6,451 nt of DNA from positions 1-6,451 of the forward strand of contig JAFGDF010000016.1 of assembly GCA_016932235.1 (NCBI GenBank), given 5' to 3'. This DNA comes from Deltaproteobacteria bacterium. Its GTDB lineage: Bacteria > Desulfobacterota > DSM-4660 > Desulfatiglandales > HGW-15. Below, in pieces: positions 1 to 6,451 of the stretch. The notes below the pieces were generated by a model. That model saw nothing but the letters and a program-made list of their open reading frames with translations. It ran no database searches and was not told the DNA's origin. How positions within the stretch are numbered: the first letter of the stretch is position 1; the number at the start of each line of letters is the position of its first letter. The translations under genes were made by a program, and so were the position numbers.

Positions 1-879
1 ATGATTCGGGAAGTGGACATTGCCTCCTTCCCGGAAGAGAAGCTGACTGATTTATTGAAGGGTCCGGTTCCCGACAAATTGCCGGTTTTCGCAATATGGT
101 ATCCAGACCAGATGGGAGAAAAAGCGCCGATCTGGATCAAGGAATTGGCGCCGTCATTCGTGGAGGCTTTTATTCAGTCTCCCAAACGCAAGGAGCTGGC
201 TGAAAGCCTGATAAACGGGGAATCCGTAGTCTGGATTTTTATCCCATCCGGAAACGCTAAAAAAGACGAGCCTGCAAAGGCATTAATTGAGCGGGAACTG
301 GATGTCGCGATACAGACCTATTCCAAAATGCCCTATACCATCCTGTCCGGCGCCAAACAGAAAAAACTGTCCTACGGATTTCCCATCATGACTGTTTCGC
401 CGCATGATCCCGCGGAACGCCTTTTCATTGATATGCTGTTGAAAAGCGAATCGGACCTTTATGAGCACACCGATGAACCGATGGTTTTCCCGGTCTTTGG
501 CCGAGGTCGGGCGCTTGGATGCCTATTCGGAGAATATATCACGGAAAGGAATATCCAGGATGCATCCGCTTTTTTGTCGGGCTCCTGCAGCTGCGAGGTG
601 AAGGCATTGAATCCCGGTGTGGACCTGCTTATTGCCGCTCCCTGGGATCAGGTTGTTTTTGATTCTTTTGTAGAGGACACCCCTTTGCCGGAGCTGACCG
701 GCGTTATGCCTGATGCTCCCGCGCAAGTCGAACAATACGCTGCCGGGATCCCGGCAGATGTTCCCATAAAGAATTCGAACGGGGTACTAAAGTCCTATGG
801 AATAGCTTTAGGCTCAGTAGTGGCAATCGTAATTTTCGTAGGCATTATCTTGACCATTTGGCAGAAGAAAAATAAATGA
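1..879 (+). CDS. Membrane-anchored protein of unknown function, first gene of ABC transporter operon (possibly 5'-partial)
   Basis: I do not recognise a named family with certainty. The readable product is 292 residues: a soluble domain of about 260 residues, one hydrophobic segment at about 264-287, then a basic tail (WQKKNK). This predicts a single C-terminal anchor. Conserved-looking blocks are a Trp/Pro-rich N-terminal part (residues 28-46), a VFGRGRALG block (165-173) and a Cys-X-Cys block (SCSCEV, 195-200) followed by NPGVDLL (204-210). From memory, and not checked, similar proteins occur next to MacB-type ABC genes in Planctomycetes-like bacteria. The basic C-terminus would lie in the cytoplasm, which puts the main domain outside. 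That topology normally needs an N-terminal signal peptide, and none is visible, so the ATG at base 1 may be an internal Met and the true start upstream of the window. The stop overlaps the permease start (ATGA, 876-879), implying translational coupling. It is probably an accessory or substrate-binding partner of the transporter (inference). Confidence 0.75.
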   Translation: MIREVDIASFPEEKLTDLLKGPVPDKLPVFAIWYPDQMGEKAPIWIKELAPSFVEAFIQSPKRKELAESLINGESVVWIFIPSGNAKKDEPAKALIERELDVAIQTYSKMPYTILSGAKQKKLSYGFPIMTVSPHDPAERLFIDMLLKSESDLYEHTDEPMVFPVFGRGRALGCLFGEYITERNIQDASAFLSGSCSCEVKALNPGVDLLIAAPWDQVVFDSFVEDTPLPELTGVMPDAPAQVEQYAAGIPADVPIKNSNGVLKSYGIALGSVVAIVIFVGIILTIWQKKNK

Positions 880-2162
880 AAATACAGCATCTGGTATTAA
901 AGGAAATAATCCACCGTAAATTTAATTTCTCCCTGAGCGTATTTGCGACATTGATCGCAACCGCATCCCTGATTGGTTCCATTGTTCTTTTACGTGTGCA
1001 TGATATTAAGACCCAATCAATCCTTCAAGAAAAAGAGGCGAAGCTTCAGGAGCGCATGGACATACTCCAGGATGATATGCGTAAAGCGATGCTCATCCTG
1101 GGCTTTAATATCGTCATTCTCCCAAAGGATCAGAATCTTGCGGACTGGTATTCGGACGATTATTCCGCCAAGGATATGCCCGAGTCTTATGTTGACCGTC
1201 TGGCCAATTCCGATATCGTCTCCATACGGCATCTTTTGCCCAGCCTGCAACAGAAGATTGAATGGCCGGAACGAAGACGGAAGATCATTTTAGTGGGCAC
1301 GCGCGGAGAAGTCCCCAACCTGCACCAGACACCACAGAAACCTATGGTTCAGCCCGTACCTTTCGGATCTATCACTCTGGGCTATGAACTCCATCGCAGT
1401 ATGGATATCCGGGTAAATGACATCGTCAAACTCATGGGCAAAACGTTTACCGTAAACAGATGTTACGAAGAGAGGGGAAATCAAGACGACATCACTGCAT
1501 GGATAAACCTGAAAGAGGCCCAGGAACTGCTGGGGAAAGAAGGGCGAATCAGCGCAATCCTGGCTCTTGAATGTTTGTGCACCGGAAACGCGCTGCCGAC
1601 AATCAGAAAGGAGATCGCCGCTATTCTCCCGGACACCCAGGTGATCGAAAGGGGATCCCGCGCCCTGGCCAGGGCGGAAGCCAGGACTAAAGTGGCTCAG
1701 GAGGCCGCCGTGACCCTTGAAAAGGAGAAATTAGCGAGGGAAACCATACGTAATGAGAAGGAACGAATGGCATCCATTTTAATACCTGTTATTCTGTTGG
1801 CCTGCGCCCTCTGGATAGCAATCATGGGCTTCATTAATGTGCGTTCAAGGCGTGAGGAGATTGGTATTCTGAGGACGGTGGGTGTTTCGGCCAGAGATAT
1901 ATTCATGCTTTTTACATGGAAACATCTGTCAATAGGTATCCTGGGGGGATTTTTAGGGCTGGTTCTTGGGATTATTCTGCCATTCATGTCTCCCGGTCCT
2001 GATCAGGTCATTAAAATAGGATCTGTCGGATCCCTAATATTTTGGTTGGGTTTAGGGGCGCTTTCGGTGATCGGCGCCTCATTTCTGTCTATCGTTGCCG
2101 GCTGGATTCCCGCCATGATTGCATCCCGTCAGGACCCTGCGGAAGTACTGAGAGGTGAATAA
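876..2162 (+). CDS. MacB/FtsX-type ABC transporter permease
   Basis: Inner-membrane permease of the type VII (MacB/LolC/FtsX-like) ABC superfamily. The 428 residues show the standard layout: TM1 at about 18-40, a large extracytoplasmic domain at about 41-298, then TM2 (299-320), TM3 (350-371) and TM4 (387-412). Family signatures are EEIGILRTVG (327-336), just after TM2, and the C-terminal DPAEVLRGE ending. These proteins transmit ATPase movement to the periplasm and usually expel or extract lipoproteins, peptides or drugs rather than import solutes. Two helical, charged stretches likely to form coiled coil sit at either end of the periplasmic domain (about 44-72 and 262-298, rich in Ala/Glu/Lys/Arg). 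The domain carries Cys196, Cys233 and Cys235 (CLC), the last two forming a CXC that echoes the CXC of the preceding gene product. It overlaps the upstream gene by 4 bp and runs into the ATPase gene. The substrate cannot be told from sequence. Confidence 0.93.
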   Translation: MKIQHLVLKEIIHRKFNFSLSVFATLIATASLIGSIVLLRVHDIKTQSILQEKEAKLQERMDILQDDMRKAMLILGFNIVILPKDQNLADWYSDDYSAKDMPESYVDRLANSDIVSIRHLLPSLQQKIEWPERRRKIILVGTRGEVPNLHQTPQKPMVQPVPFGSITLGYELHRSMDIRVNDIVKLMGKTFTVNRCYEERGNQDDITAWINLKEAQELLGKEGRISAILALECLCTGNALPTIRKEIAAILPDTQVIERGSRALARAEARTKVAQEAAVTLEKEKLARETIRNEKERMASILIPVILLACALWIAIMGFINVRSRREEIGILRTVGVSARDIFMLFTWKHLSIGILGGFLGLVLGIILPFMSPGPDQVIKIGSVGSLIFWLGLGALSVIGASFLSIVAGWIPAMIASRQDPAEVLRGE

Positions 2163-2163
2163 T

Positions 2164-2826
2164 ATGATGATCCAGCTAAAAAACGTCACCAGGAGCTTCA
2201 GTGGTCCAAAAGGCAAGGTAATTGCCCTGAATGATGTTTCTCTTTATTTGTCATCAGGCGAAATGCTTGCAGTCAATGGCCCTAGCGGCTGCGGCAAGTC
2301 CACACTCTTAATGACAGCCGCCGGCATGCTGAAACCGGATCAGGGCGATGTTCTGTTTTGGGGGGAAGATCATCCTTACAATCTCCCTCCAGACAAGCGG
2401 AGCCGTCTTTGTGCCGGCCTGATCGGCTTTGTCTTCCAGCAGTTCCACCTTATACCTTATTTAACGGTGAGAGAGAACATCATCCTTCCTTCACTGTCCA
2501 TACCCGGTAAAGACCTGGATCGGCGAGCACAGGAACTCATTCAGCAGTTCGGCCTTCATGACCGCGCCGATCATGTTCCATCTCAGCTCAGCACGGGGGA
2601 ACGGCAACGGACTGCATTGGCGCGCGCGCTTTTTAACCGGCCAAAAATCATTATGGCGGATGAACCCACAGGGAATCTGGATGATGAAAATGCCGATATC
2701 GTGCTGAAACATTTGAGCCTCTATGTTTCAGAGGGAGGAAGCGTACTGCTTGTCACACACAATGCCGGTGCCGCCTATTACGCAACACGAATCCTGAAGA
2801 TGAGGGATGGCCGCCTGCTTCAATAA
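2164..2826 (+). CDS. ABC transporter ATP-binding protein, LolD/MacB type
   Basis: Cytoplasmic ATPase that powers the permease encoded just upstream. With the ATG at 2164 the product has 220 residues, normal for a stand-alone LolD-like subunit. All nucleotide-binding motifs are intact: Walker A GPSGCGKST (39-47), Q-loop FVFQQFHLIPYLTV (89-102), signature LSTGERQR (142-149), Walker B IIMADEPTGNLD (162-173) and the switch His in LVTHN (199). The FQQFHLIPYLT and DEPTGNLD wording is typical of the MacB/LolD/FtsE branch that works with FtsX-like permeases. An in-frame GTG at 2155, inside the permease end, would add three residues. The ATG at 2164 is preferred because AGAGG at 2151-2155 lies 8 nt upstream; ATG at 2167 is also possible. 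It is the last gene of the operon. No second ATPase or outer-membrane partner is visible. Confidence 0.95.
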   Translation: MMIQLKNVTRSFSGPKGKVIALNDVSLYLSSGEMLAVNGPSGCGKSTLLMTAAGMLKPDQGDVLFWGEDHPYNLPPDKRSRLCAGLIGFVFQQFHLIPYLTVRENIILPSLSIPGKDLDRRAQELIQQFGLHDRADHVPSQLSTGERQRTALARALFNRPKIIMADEPTGNLDDENADIVLKHLSLYVSEGGSVLLVTHNAGAAYYATRILKMRDGRLLQ

Positions 2827-3010: not shown

Positions 3011-3643
3011 ATGGCAGGTGATCTGGCTGGATTGATAGCGGAATTGAAGGAACAGGAGGCGTTGGATGCAGTAAAGAAAAGGCTGGCTGAAGGATCTGAC
3101 CCCATGAAGATTCTTGAAGAGGCAAGAGAAGGGATGGGTGTCGTGGGTCAGAGATTCGGCAGCGGACAATATTTTATCCCCGACCTGATCTACTCAGGGG
3201 AGATATTGAGGGGCATTGCCCAACTTGTTGAGCCTTATATAAAAAGCTCGAAGACAGAGCAAAAAAAGCTCGGCAAGGTGATTATTGCCACAGTGGCAGG
3301 GGATATCCATGATATAGGAAAGGATCTGGTTGTCTTTATGCTGGATATAAGCGGATTCGAGGTCTATGACCTTGGAATCGACGTCCCGGTAAAGAATATT
3401 GTCGATAAGATGAAAGAGACAAAAGCCCCGGTAGTGGGATTGAGCGGTTTCCTCACCTTGGCATTTGACGCGATGAAGGAAACAATAGATGCTATTAAAA
3501 AGGAGGGGTTGAGAGATAAGGTCAAGATAATGATAGGCGGCGGACAGATTGACGATACGGTTCAAAAATATGTTGGCGCCGATGCCTGGGGAAAAGACGC
3601 CATGGCGGCGGTAACCCTGGCGAGGCAATGGCTTGTGAAGTAA
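3011..3643 (+). CDS. Corrinoid (B12-binding) methyl-carrier protein, MtbC/MtaC/MtmC-like
   Basis: Small cytoplasmic protein that holds a cobamide and shuttles methyl groups between two methyltransferases. The 210 residues match the usual stand-alone corrinoid protein length and two-domain order: a helical cap domain (about 5-85, with YFIPDLIYSGEILRG at 54-68) and a Rossmann-like B12-binding domain (about 88-210). The cobalt-ligand motif DXHXXG is present as GDIHDIGKD (97-105), with His100 the predicted lower axial ligand. Ser145 in VGLSGFLT and the GGG at 176-178 match the other conserved cobamide-contacting positions of the family. It has its own predicted promoter and a strong ribosome binding site. 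It points toward the URO-D-family methyltransferase gene across a shared terminator. The methyl donor cannot be assigned. No MtaB/MttB-type substrate methyltransferase or corrinoid reductive activase lies in the window. Confidence 0.95.
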   Translation: MAGDLAGLIAELKEQEALDAVKKRLAEGSDPMKILEEAREGMGVVGQRFGSGQYFIPDLIYSGEILRGIAQLVEPYIKSSKTEQKKLGKVIIATVAGDIHDIGKDLVVFMLDISGFEVYDLGIDVPVKNIVDKMKETKAPVVGLSGFLTLAFDAMKETIDAIKKEGLRDKVKIMIGGGQIDDTVQKYVGADAWGKDAMAAVTLARQWLVK

Positions 3644-3927: not shown

Positions 3928-5277
3928 TTAATACTTTCCGTATTCCCTGGTGAACTCAACCATGGCCTTGATATTCTCCGCCTTTGCCTCATCGAAAAAC
4001 GCGCCATTGGCCATTATGAAACCACCGTCTTGGCCAACAGTATCGATAAGTTTTTTACAGTAATCTTTCACCTCATCAACGGTTCCTAATCCCAATAGAG
4101 AGGAGGGGACATTGCCGAGAAGACAGGCATTCTTTCCCAATGTCTCCTTTGCCTTCTTCATATCCGACTGGTCAACCATCCAGAGCGTTTTATTTTTTGG
4201 AATGTCCTGAATAATATCTAAACGCGTTTCCCAGTGTCCTTCAAGTGCGGGGAATGGTATGCATCCGCCTTCGATCAATCCGATTATCACCTTTCGAAAT
4301 GTGGGCCAGTAAAATTTTTTGAACTGCGCATCCGACATCATTCCGTCGGCGCCCTTGTGAAGAGGCATAAAGATTAAAGGATTCCCGGTCACCCGCGCTG
4401 ATCCTAATCCGACATTGACCATTATTGGAACCAAAACTTCCATTGCCTCGAGGATCTTATCAGGTCTGCGGAACAGATCCATCATAATTTGCCTTGTCCC
4501 CCTGAGCGTGTCGCCTATTGTGTCAAAAGGTGCCTTGCTGTATCCGGCGAGGATGTTGACGTATCCCAGAGTGGTCAACTCTGCGTTTAGGCCTCCTATG
4601 TATCCGGCCCATTTAATTGCCTCATCGGCCGCTGCGGCAAGCTTTTTAAAAGTTTCCTTCACCGGGGGAAGGCCAAAAGGAATAAAATCAAAGGCGACGC
4701 CGTACATCTCCTGAATACCGGGGAAATTCGGCAGCATCCGAAATCCGTCTAAGATGCCGAATACGCGCGGCAGGTAGTAATTGATGAAAAAACGTGAAGG
4801 ATCGGATATCAATATGTCATATTCCTCGGGCTTCATATATTCGCCGTCCAACATCTGGTAGCAGTGCTCTTTCTTCACTCCATGGCCCGGCCAGGCATAG
4901 AGTTTATAGTCCACCAATTCAAAGAACCTTCCGGGACCGGCCTGTGCCGCCCCGATATGCATATCCGGCTCCATTTCCAGTATGAATTTTTTAAACGCAT
5001 CCACGGCCTTCTGAGAATCATACATCGCGTCATAGGGCGTAATGCCGGCGTTAAGGAACGCGAACATACTGGGAAGAATAACCACCGGCACTCTATCCGG
5101 CTTTTTCTTCCCCTGAATCGCGTCTTTGATCCTGTTTAAACTCGCCTTATACTTTTCTTTAGTCTTAGGGCTTTTAAATTGTATATCCTTTCCCTCGGCG
5201 TTTTTTGGCGAAAGCAGCTTTTGAAACTGCGCCTCCTGCTTTTCATCCGCTGACATCTCTTCCCATTTCTTATCCAT
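3928..5277 (-). CDS. URO-D superfamily methyltransferase-like protein (MtaA/CmuA-related, not HemE)
   Basis: Cytoplasmic TIM-barrel protein of the uroporphyrinogen decarboxylase superfamily. Free-standing members outside heme synthesis usually move methyl groups to or from corrinoid proteins. The 449 residues include a charged N-terminal extension (about 1-45) longer than in HemE. Visible family blocks are PLHKGADGMMSDAQFKKFYW (305-324), FPALEGHWETRLD (342-354), CLLGNVPSSLLGLGT (385-399) and DGGFIMANG (417-425). The N-terminal arginine/glycine signature of true HemE is absent. The canonical zinc-binding His-X-Cys of MtaA/MtbA is also not seen; EGHWETR and GNVPSS stand in the corresponding regions, so the metal or substrate chemistry may differ. 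AGGAGGG (5286-5292), 8 nt upstream, supports the ATG at 5277. It lies downstream of the MoaD-like and oxidoreductase genes on the same strand and faces a corrinoid protein gene, its likely partner. The substrate is unknown. Confidence 0.9.
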   Translation of the reverse strand: MDKKWEEMSADEKQEAQFQKLLSPKNAEGKDIQFKSPKTKEKYKASLNRIKDAIQGKKKPDRVPVVILPSMFAFLNAGITPYDAMYDSQKAVDAFKKFILEMEPDMHIGAAQAGPGRFFELVDYKLYAWPGHGVKKEHCYQMLDGEYMKPEEYDILISDPSRFFINYYLPRVFGILDGFRMLPNFPGIQEMYGVAFDFIPFGLPPVKETFKKLAAAADEAIKWAGYIGGLNAELTTLGYVNILAGYSKAPFDTIGDTLRGTRQIMMDLFRRPDKILEAMEVLVPIMVNVGLGSARVTGNPLIFMPLHKGADGMMSDAQFKKFYWPTFRKVIIGLIEGGCIPFPALEGHWETRLDIIQDIPKNKTLWMVDQSDMKKAKETLGKNACLLGNVPSSLLGLGTVDEVKDYCKKLIDTVGQDGGFIMANGAFFDEAKAENIKAMVEFTREYGKY

Positions 5278-5331: not shown

Positions 5332-5360
5332 ATAATACCAGGGATATTATCCCCCGTGAA
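5332..5360 (-). promoter_or_regulatory. Candidate promoter of the URO-D-family gene
   Basis: On the - strand, TTCACG (5355-5360, 4 of 6 to the -35 consensus) is followed after exactly 17 bp by TATTAT (5332-5337, 5 of 6 to the -10 consensus). It overlaps the last codons of the MoaD-like gene and would start transcription near 5325, about 48 nt before the ATG. A 13-bp palindrome (GGGATA-T-TATCCC, 5341-5353) fills most of the spacer and could be an operator. Both are consensus-based guesses; the gene could equally be read through from the genes upstream. Confidence 0.35.
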
Positions 5361-5586
5361 TAGCCTGAAAAACATATGCCTGCGCTCCGTGTTGCATCTT
5401 GTCGTCTCTTTTCAGTATCCGGCCTTCCATAGCAACCACTGCTCCGCTGGATTCCGAGATTTTCAGAAGGAAGAGAAGCTGGTTGGCCGTCGCCCCATCC
5501 GGAACTTCAACCTCGATACCATCTTGATGGCGGTAATTGGGAAAATGTTCTCTCAAGGTCCCGAATAATTTAACGCTCATCTTCAT
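5347..5586 (-). CDS. MoaD/ThiS-like ubiquitin-fold sulfur carrier
   Basis: Small beta-grasp protein of 79 residues, the normal size for MoaD/ThiS. It opens with a short strand (MSVKLFGTLRE, 3-13), has VEVPDGATANQLLFLL (26-41) and a VAMEGRILKRDDKMQHGAQAYVFQ-type second half (51-74), and ends exactly in Gly-Gly (78-79). That terminus is adenylated by a MoeB/ThiF enzyme and converted to a thiocarboxylate, which donates sulfur to the pterin dithiolene of molybdenum or tungsten cofactor. It starts 13 nt after the oxidoreductase stop, with AAGAG (5596-5600) 9 nt before the ATG at 5586, so the two genes are co-transcribed. A second ATG at 5580 is possible but less well spaced. MoaD-like genes next to tungsten aldehyde oxidoreductases are a known arrangement, and they probably supply or tune cofactor for that enzyme. 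A role in thiamine or another sulfur transfer is less likely here. Confidence 0.88.
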   Translation of the reverse strand: MKMSVKLFGTLREHFPNYRHQDGIEVEVPDGATANQLLFLLKISESSGAVVAMEGRILKRDDKMQHGAQAYVFQAIHGG

Positions 5587-5599
5587 TCTAAGATACTCT

Positions 5600-6451
5600 T
5601 TAAAAGTCTAAAGTGCTGTCAATCTTCTCATCACTGATGGTAAAGACGGTATTATGGGGCGGCAGGGGCTCTTCATAATAAAATTTGGGCAGTCGATCGT
5701 CTTTATTAGTGAATCCCGCATTTCTATTAAATTCCCTCTCCGCTTTCAACACTCGGATACCAAGTGCAGGGATATCATCCGGTGCCAGATGTGTTCCAGA
5801 TTTAGAATTTATGGCCTTTAAAAGTGCTCCTCCACCTTCGGGGGTGGTAAGGGCCACAATAGCCATAAAACATATCCCCGTGCAATCAGCAGCGGCCATT
5901 GCGATTTGGAGGTTTCGGGATGCTTCAACCTGGCCTTCCGGGTTTAATGGATTGAGTTTTTGTTCCAAATAATCCCCAACCACGTTGCCGGCCGTGTGAT
6001 CAGCACCCATGGGTGAGGTGGCAAATGTAACGCCGTTGCCGAGCATAGCCCTTGGATCATAAGCGGCAACGCTCTGGCCTTTTACTACAGGAACCCGTTT
6101 GTGGTTGAAATGCCTTCCCACCGCTGCGGGGCCGTTTCCAAGGATCTTTCCGAATTTGGTTCCCTTGCCGATCTCTTCCACCATCTCAATGGCCGCGGCC
6201 TTATCCCCGAACTCCTTGTATCCTGCATCCATGGCGACCGCAATGGCTACTCCTGTGCTCATGGTATCAACGCCAATGTCATCGCACAGTTTATCGAGCC
6301 GGGCAATTGTATCCAGGTCATCTATGCCGCACATCCCTCCGGTTGCCCAGATGGTCTCATACTCTAATCCGCTGGTTACATACTTCCCCTCTTTATCCAC
6401 AAATACGTTGGAGCAATGGACAACGCACTGGGAGCAGCCCATATGGGTTGG
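5600..6451 (-). CDS. Aldehyde:ferredoxin oxidoreductase, C-terminal half (5'-partial, continues past window edge)
   Basis: Tungsten-bis-pterin enzyme oxidising an aldehyde to its acid with ferredoxin as electron acceptor. The open frame runs to the window edge (first codons Pro-Thr-His), so the Met at 6442 is internal. The 283 readable residues correspond to domains 2 and 3 of a protein usually about 600 long. Seen: the [4Fe-4S] ligand motif CSQCVVHC (residues 6-13 of the readable part), the fourth cluster Cys in DCTGIC (189-194), the two pterin-binding DXXGX(D/C) motifs DDIGVD (57-62) and DCTGIC, and GADHTAGN (149-156), whose His matches the active-site region. The N-terminal pterin-binding domain is off the window. 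The protein ends soon after LPKFYYEEPLPP, without the YY-X-RGWD tail common in the family. It leads an operon with the MoaD-like gene. The aldehyde cannot be assigned from this half. Confidence 0.93.
   Translation of the reverse strand, partial: PTHMGCSQCVVHCSNVFVDKEGKYVTSGLEYETIWATGGMCGIDDLDTIARLDKLCDDIGVDTMSTGVAIAVAMDAGYKEFGDKAAAIEMVEEIGKGTKFGKILGNGPAAVGRHFNHKRVPVVKGQSVAAYDPRAMLGNGVTFATSPMGADHTAGNVVGDYLEQKLNPLNPEGQVEASRNLQIAMAAADCTGICFMAIVALTTPEGGGALLKAINSKSGTHLAPDDIPALGIRVLKAEREFNRNAGFTNKDDRLPKFYYEEPLPPHNTVFTISDEKIDSTLDF

Follow-up and report, generated by a model that had tools for sequence, protein, structure and literature searches.

A Type VII ABC transporter with an anchored CxC partner: a candidate component of a larger extracytoplasmic system with giant secreted proteins

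The locus and its transporter genes

The window (the whole stretch of 6,451 nucleotides analysed, from a Deltaproteobacteria bacterium) begins with three ABC-system genes, referred to here as the partner, the permease and the ATPase, and ends within a tungsten-type AFOR gene. Its features are as follows.

1..879, + strand: partner ORF, 5'-incomplete, with a predicted thioredoxin-like extracytoplasmic region, a conserved GRGR block, a CxC motif and a C-terminal TM anchor
586..594, + strand: partner CSC motif, residues 196-198 (alignment columns with Cys in 80/83 and 79/83 sequences)
781..873, + strand: partner C-terminal transmembrane anchor, residues 261-291 (hydropathy peak)
876..2162, + strand: Type VII (MacB/LolC-like) ABC permease with an FtsX domain (PF02687, structure matches, hydropathy)
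1572..1580, + strand: permease CLC motif, residues 233-235, within an ALxCxC block (alignments of relatives)
2164 (ATG)..2826, + strand, with an alternative GTG start at 2155 that is the mechanical ORF start: LolD/FtsE-type ATPase (PF00005, TIGR02211)
3011-3643, + strand: corrinoid protein (B12-binding, MtbC/MtgC-like; Pfam/NCBIfam)
3928-5277, - strand: URO-D-type methyltransferase (MtaA/CmuA-like; Pfam/NCBIfam)
5347-5586, - strand: ThiS/MoaD-like protein with a C-terminal GG, adjoining the AFOR gene
5600-6451, - strand: tungsten-type AFOR, incomplete at the contig end

The sequence-only reading had described the first three ORFs as translationally coupled, and they are indeed real and coupled: all lie on the plus strand, and the partner and permease genes overlap by ATGA, such overlaps being frequent in the tight operons of this system. 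Judged by eye, the ATPase looks more likely to start at the ATG at 2164 than at the GTG at 2155. The partner gene had been taken to start at base 1, which is the contig edge and not the start of the gene; the best full-length relatives have 360-383 aa and residue 1 of the window partner aligns with residue 92 of the relative P0002, so that about 91 N-terminal residues lie beyond the edge. In the nearest relatives with context (loci L001 and L002) a gene for a giant secreted protein is located directly upstream of the partner, and the window's giant was therefore probably lost at the contig edge. The corrinoid protein and the URO-D-type methyltransferase, encoded on opposite strands between the ABC genes and AFOR, make up a pair for one-carbon methyl transfer.

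The earlier assignment of a MacB/LolD-type engine is borne out. The permease matches the FtsX-like domain PF02687 (45 bits against a cutoff of 25.5), which is present by precomputed annotation in 120/120 of the permease relatives listed, and it also matches LolC, LolE and MacB structures. Hydropathy alone places TM1 at residues 16-34 and further segments at 296-324, 349-374, 378-396 and 398-417, a large domain separating TM1 from the C-terminal segments. The ATPase matches PF00005 at 121.4 bits. The best NCBIfam scores, both below cutoff, are those of LolC/E for the permease (66.8 against 362.45 bits, so the match falls short of the equivalog) and LolD for the ATPase (TIGR02211, 184.1 against 307.75 bits); the FtsE (168.1 against 264.85 bits), FtsX (20.7 against 255) and YbbP (11.8 against 999) models are likewise not reached.

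Conserved cysteines in the partner, the permease and the giants

With the window's 5'-incomplete partner as query we found no Pfam or NCBIfam family at E<=1, in keeping with its description as unfamiliar, and no known adaptor or hydrolase emerged. Sequence comparison with the PDB gave chance-level matches only (E>=0.79), viral contigs and plasmids contained no relatives, and nothing in a viral structure library matched at E<=0.001. The family comprises 1280 proteins at E<=0.01. In full-length relatives the N-terminal part carries a signal peptide and also a CSVPVFRYALERW-like motif, the conserved Cys of which is invariant in a 19-row alignment (A2) and present in 77/83 partners of a wide set. 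The partner architecture thus has three elements, namely a conserved Cys close to the probable N-terminus of the mature protein, a CxC pair, and a TM anchor at the C-terminus, the last of these as proposed earlier and seen as the hydropathy peak at 261-291. One ORF of 1192 aa (L022:6661-10239) has a partner-like N-terminus and a long C-terminal extension with no Pfam match.

The reported CxC motifs are present, CSC at residues 196-198 of the partner and CLC at residues 233-235 of the permease, and both are conserved in homologues. In the wide sets Cys occupies the two partner columns in 80/83 and 79/83 sequences, and for the two permease columns the counts are 42/42 and 40/42; the ALxCxC block occurs in 120/120 permeases among the matches listed, of 2073 in total, and both permease cysteines are invariant within the conserved block of a 10-row alignment (A4). 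To our knowledge the E. coli LolC, MacB and FtsX proteins are without such a motif. Since both motifs are kept in distant relatives, their conservation is not expected by chance.

Structure prediction, which the sequence-only reading had proposed as a check of the fold, indicates a thioredoxin-like partner, the fold being found at residues 151-284 of the predicted P0002 model, with PDI-type structural matches. The cysteines of P0002 are at positions 28, 40, 265, 287 and 289 only, and these form no CXXC redox active site. The predicted fold with its PDI-type matches, and the presence of CxC in partner, permease and giant, would suit a thiol-disulfide system in which the anchored partner is an isomerase or reductase for four-Cys giants and the ABC transporter moves or presents a small thiol, with no metal involved. 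We consider this unlikely but deserving of serious weight, because the partner has no CXXC and because a ModABC-like importer, MoaD and MoeB proteins and two invariant cysteines of a tandem ModA protein, all described below, would be left unexplained.

The giants of at least 950 aa (n=37) are 957 to 2026 aa long. PQQ_2 propeller domains are present in those scanned, most of which have a methyltransferase domain in addition, and some malectin or laminin-G modules. All 33 of the 33 aligned giants (one gene appearing twice, in L009 and L020) have in common two single cysteines and a CxC pair. Great variation in the glycine loop of the methyltransferase domain makes methyltransferase catalysis doubtful. 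The predicted giant model has a mean pLDDT of 60.7, and its Cys region is of low confidence, too poor to judge a metal site; a Foldseek search with this model placed tetrathionate hydrolase and BamB at the top and the methyltransferase 3dlc at rank 33. A genome may have up to 24 giant matches at E<=0.001, of which at most 18 candidates were scored. In genome G257 a single partner match is accompanied by five giant matches at E<1e-100, of which one has an internal stop, as expected if one machine has many clients. Part of a published account (PMC5287468) places a beta-propeller protein family in the pore-bearing membranes of Gemmata obscuriglobus.

Some giants are lipoprotein-like, that of L001 having a lipobox-like LFAAGC as judged by eye. 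Together with the top, sub-cutoff NCBIfam scores of LolC/E and LolD, this is consistent with LolCDE-like sorting, whereby the ABC transporter extracts giants from the inner membrane, the partner is the periplasmic receiver and the CxC motifs are structural. However, the L009 giant and the other giant starts inspected have signal peptides without a lipobox, also by eye; the partner is membrane-anchored, which LolA is not known to be; and the near-invariant CxC, the importer and the sulfur-carrier genes would have no explanation. We regard such sorting as improbable.

Gene neighbourhood and co-occurrence

A genome scan yielded 17 partner loci, in records whose titles name Acidobacteria, Deltaproteobacteria, Verrucomicrobia/Opitutia, Planctomycetes and Kuenenia, and the partner was found in 5/199 Acidobacteria, 37/246 Planctomycetes and 27/240 Verrucomicrobia genomes. 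The linkage of partner and ABC genes that had been proposed extends across phyla. When the ORFs of 83 loci were clustered without prior choice, the recurrent clusters were the permease (44 loci), ATPases (44), the giant (36), a ModA/ModB cluster (30), ThiF (18) and ThiS (12), every other cluster occurring in at most 6 of the 83 loci. Profiles applied to the same loci, with score limits chosen by hand, found the permease in 46, the ATPase in 39, the giant in 36, tandem ModA in 34, ModB in 29, ModC in 28, ThiF/MoeB in 21 and ThiS/MoaD in 22. With the same profiles, 40 control regions from partner-positive genomes, placed by hand at round coordinates and longer than the test loci (19.5 kb against a mean of 15.6 kb), contained one ATPase and no other family. 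Loci L024-L088 were left out of the clustering, the Cys counts and the profile survey, 60 places having been refetched as longer stretches; overlapping or near-copy loci (L004/L005, and L009/L020 sharing one giant gene) were counted separately.

The permease mostly adjoins the partner where a locus contains both, and permease, ATPase, tandem ModA, ModB, ModC, ThiF and ThiS occur together in 14 loci. The expectation of constant ABC linkage holds in part: a permease is present in 46 of the 83 partner loci and absent from 37, a count that refers to the locus only and includes some loci cut by contig ends. Of these 37, 15 have the giant only and 9 have none of the families. The set is larger than the three-gene system first proposed, and in those 15 loci the partner is paired with a giant alone. 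Two genomes, G346 (L104, L146) and G403 (L103, L147), each have two partner copies, one beside permease, ATPase, tandem ModA and ModBC, and the other with giant, tandem ModA, ModBC, ThiS and ThiF and no permease in the locus. In two giant-partner loci of Planctomycetes a gene for an FHA-domain protein kinase follows the partner (L006:9081-10460 and L012:6935-8281), and clustering shows a similar gene in two further loci.

The substrate-binding protein (SBP) of the ModABC-like importer is a single chain of two ModA-like domains, with a hydrophobic stretch at its N-terminus; in some genomes these domains are separate genes. With 115.3 and 63.5 bits, both SBPs scored lie above the TIGR01256 modA cutoff of 62.5 bits, and ModB/CysT-type models match the importer permease below their cutoffs. 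In the second half of tandem ModA, C321 and C347 (L017 numbering) are present in 15/15 rows, within NGCG-like and PDxYxxCD-like motifs, and presumably this invariant pair lies near the oxyanion-binding serine of ModA. A MoeB-like ThiF and a MoaD-like ThiS are found in the same gene clusters as the importer, the ThiS/MoaD-like proteins ending in GG in 21 of 22 and in GGA in one. Tandem ModA is not present in the window, and no full-length copy was found in G001 and G002, the genomes of the nearest loci with context, nor in G074 and G173 from the same phylum search; the Mo/W link is thus weakest in the window's own group.

We then compared 71 partner-positive genomes (33/37 Planctomycetes, 27/27 Verrucomicrobia, 4/5 Acidobacteria and 7/8 others) with 68 genomes without a partner match, the latter from the Planctomycetes and Verrucomicrobia searches, none from the Acidobacteria search, and in handle order rather than at random. 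Left out of the positives were the Planctomycetes G219, G285, G307 and G452 (E 1e-9 to 3e-11), the acidobacterial G116, and G004, the locus of which (L004) is a near-copy of L005; G173 was kept despite E 1.8e-10. At E<1e-30, a limit set by hand after the scores had been seen, the giant is found in 63/71 positives and 2/68 negatives; at the loose limit of E<=0.001, which also admits pieces of propellers and methyltransferases, these become 70/71 and 36/68. Tandem ModA at E<=1e-30 is found in 62/71 positives (49 full-length, 13 matching about half of the model) and 1/68 negatives, or 49/71 and 1/68 for full-length matches, and the permease at E<=1e-20, in a search that covered the negatives, in 1/68; these limits too were chosen by hand. 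All of these are plain tallies that ignore the kinship of the genomes. Neighbours of the partner served to build the models of giant, ModA, ThiF and ThiS, so that the positive counts are partly circular, whereas the controls and negatives are not. MoaC is present in 55/71 positives and absent in 16, tallied without a matched control.

G239, one of the two negatives with a giant at E<1e-30 and the one with the permease and tandem ModA matches, has giant, partner, permease, ATPase, tandem ModA, ModB, ModC, ThiS and ThiF together. Its partner is diverged and keeps the N-terminal Cys, a CEC and the GRGR block that had been singled out as conserved, and its permease has ALECYC. The other, G237, gave no match to the permease or to tandem ModA.

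A Type VII permease with its ATPase would also suit a conventional MacB-type pump that exports a toxic compound, the giants, the importer and MoaD/MoeB then being neighbours without any connection to it. The permease and ATPase are separate, the window contains no HlyD-like adaptor, and partner, giant and tandem ModA resemble one another in phylogenetic profile, which together make this explanation highly improbable.

In view of the AFOR and MoaD genes in the window, we also examined co-occurrence of the partner with AFOR and rejected a link, AFOR being present in 12/71 positives and 12/68 negatives. G001 and G002 have an unusual number of AFOR_C matches, 23 and 17 respectively, some of which are pieces of one frame. 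Locus L002 has other genes downstream of the ATPase than the window has, and as AFOR showed no association either, the best interpretation of the window's AFOR, MoaD and corrinoid genes is that they are unrelated to the system.

A proposed maturation system and its relation to known systems

The partner, permease, giants and importer are joined by linkage, co-occurrence and conserved cysteines. Given conserved cysteines in the presumably extracytoplasmic parts of partner, permease, giant and tandem ModA, and the ModABC-like, MoaD and MoeB neighbours, the most economical model is that thiols mediate the delivery of a cofactor, or of redox equivalents, to the exported giants. We propose, with a probability of roughly 45%, that permease and ATPase form the engine, and the partner the anchored chaperone, of a larger system for extracytoplasmic maturation with a thiol hand-off to the secreted giants. 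We infer the direction of transport, the cargo and the client relation. ATP-driven movement of the permease would pass a thiol-bound cargo to the permease CxC, from there to the partner Cys and CxC, and finally to the Cys site of the exported giants; the importer and the MoaD/MoeB pair could supply or sulfurate this cargo. Candidate cargoes are a soft metal, Mo/W or sulfur species, or redox equivalents, and Cu is also a candidate. The metal or redox handling that the sequence-only reading had raised for the CxC motifs is a plausible role, now extended to the giant and tandem ModA. Against the maturation model, the extracytoplasmic cysteines may be plain disulfides, and the permease-less loci (37/83), the loose-limit giant matches in negatives (36/68) and the missing MoaC (16/71 positives) also count against it.

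A bolder version, which we hold to be doubtful and rather unlikely, is an undescribed extracytoplasmic cofactor assembly line, in which the ModABC-like importer, the Cys-bearing tandem binding protein and MoaD/MoeB would make thiolated Mo/W/Cu and the CxC relays of the Type VII ABC transporter would deliver it to four-Cys propellers. If true, secreted four-Cys propellers would be a new metalloprotein class of Planctomycetes, Verrucomicrobia and Acidobacteria-type bacteria. The larger system itself, whichever version applies, brings together a partner family without a Pfam model and a giant family with several copies per genome, and it offers a testable role for an uncharacterised Type VII ABC transporter. 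If the cargo were a metal-sulfur species, there would be a new route of post-export cofactor insertion with its client list at hand.

We found no publication on this system, which is weak evidence of absence as most subscription journals were outside the search; the larger gene system is apparently undescribed so far. Published work (PMC12646458) indicates that partner proteins can classify uncharacterised Type VII ABC systems and predict their function. The genes described here resemble the Type VII systems LolCDE-LolA, MacAB-TolC, FtsEX-EnvC and YbbAP-TesA in having an FtsX-domain permease, a LolD-like ATPase and a putative periplasmic partner, but this partner is an anchored, predicted thioredoxin-like protein with Cys and CxC, the permease has a CxC block, and both are linked to giant propellers, a ModABC-like importer, MoaD and MoeB. 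Unlike in MacAB, permease and ATPase are separate ORFs and the 5'-incomplete partner matches no Pfam family; unlike in YbbAP-TesA, the window partner has no hydrolase family match. ModABC molybdate transporters are similar in their SBPs (above the TIGR01256 cutoff) and, below cutoff, in a ModB/CysT-like importer permease, but here there are two ModA domains per protein, an N-terminal hydrophobic stretch and two invariant cysteines in the second half. Compared with the multi-thioredoxin proteins PDI b-b' and calsequestrin, the partner has no CXXC, and has an N-terminal Cys, a C-terminal anchor and a place in an ABC operon.

NosDFY acts as an ABC module in the assembly of nitrous oxide reductase. 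The proposed maturation system would work in a mode like that of NosDFY-NosL in servicing nitrous oxide reductase, with unrelated parts, and no window protein has a Pfam match to the NosL or NosD family at E<=1. The likeness, as far as part of one source describes it (PMC6530538), is that of an ABC module with a dedicated metal chaperone for a secreted enzyme; the client here would instead be a giant with a PQQ-type propeller and a methyltransferase fold.
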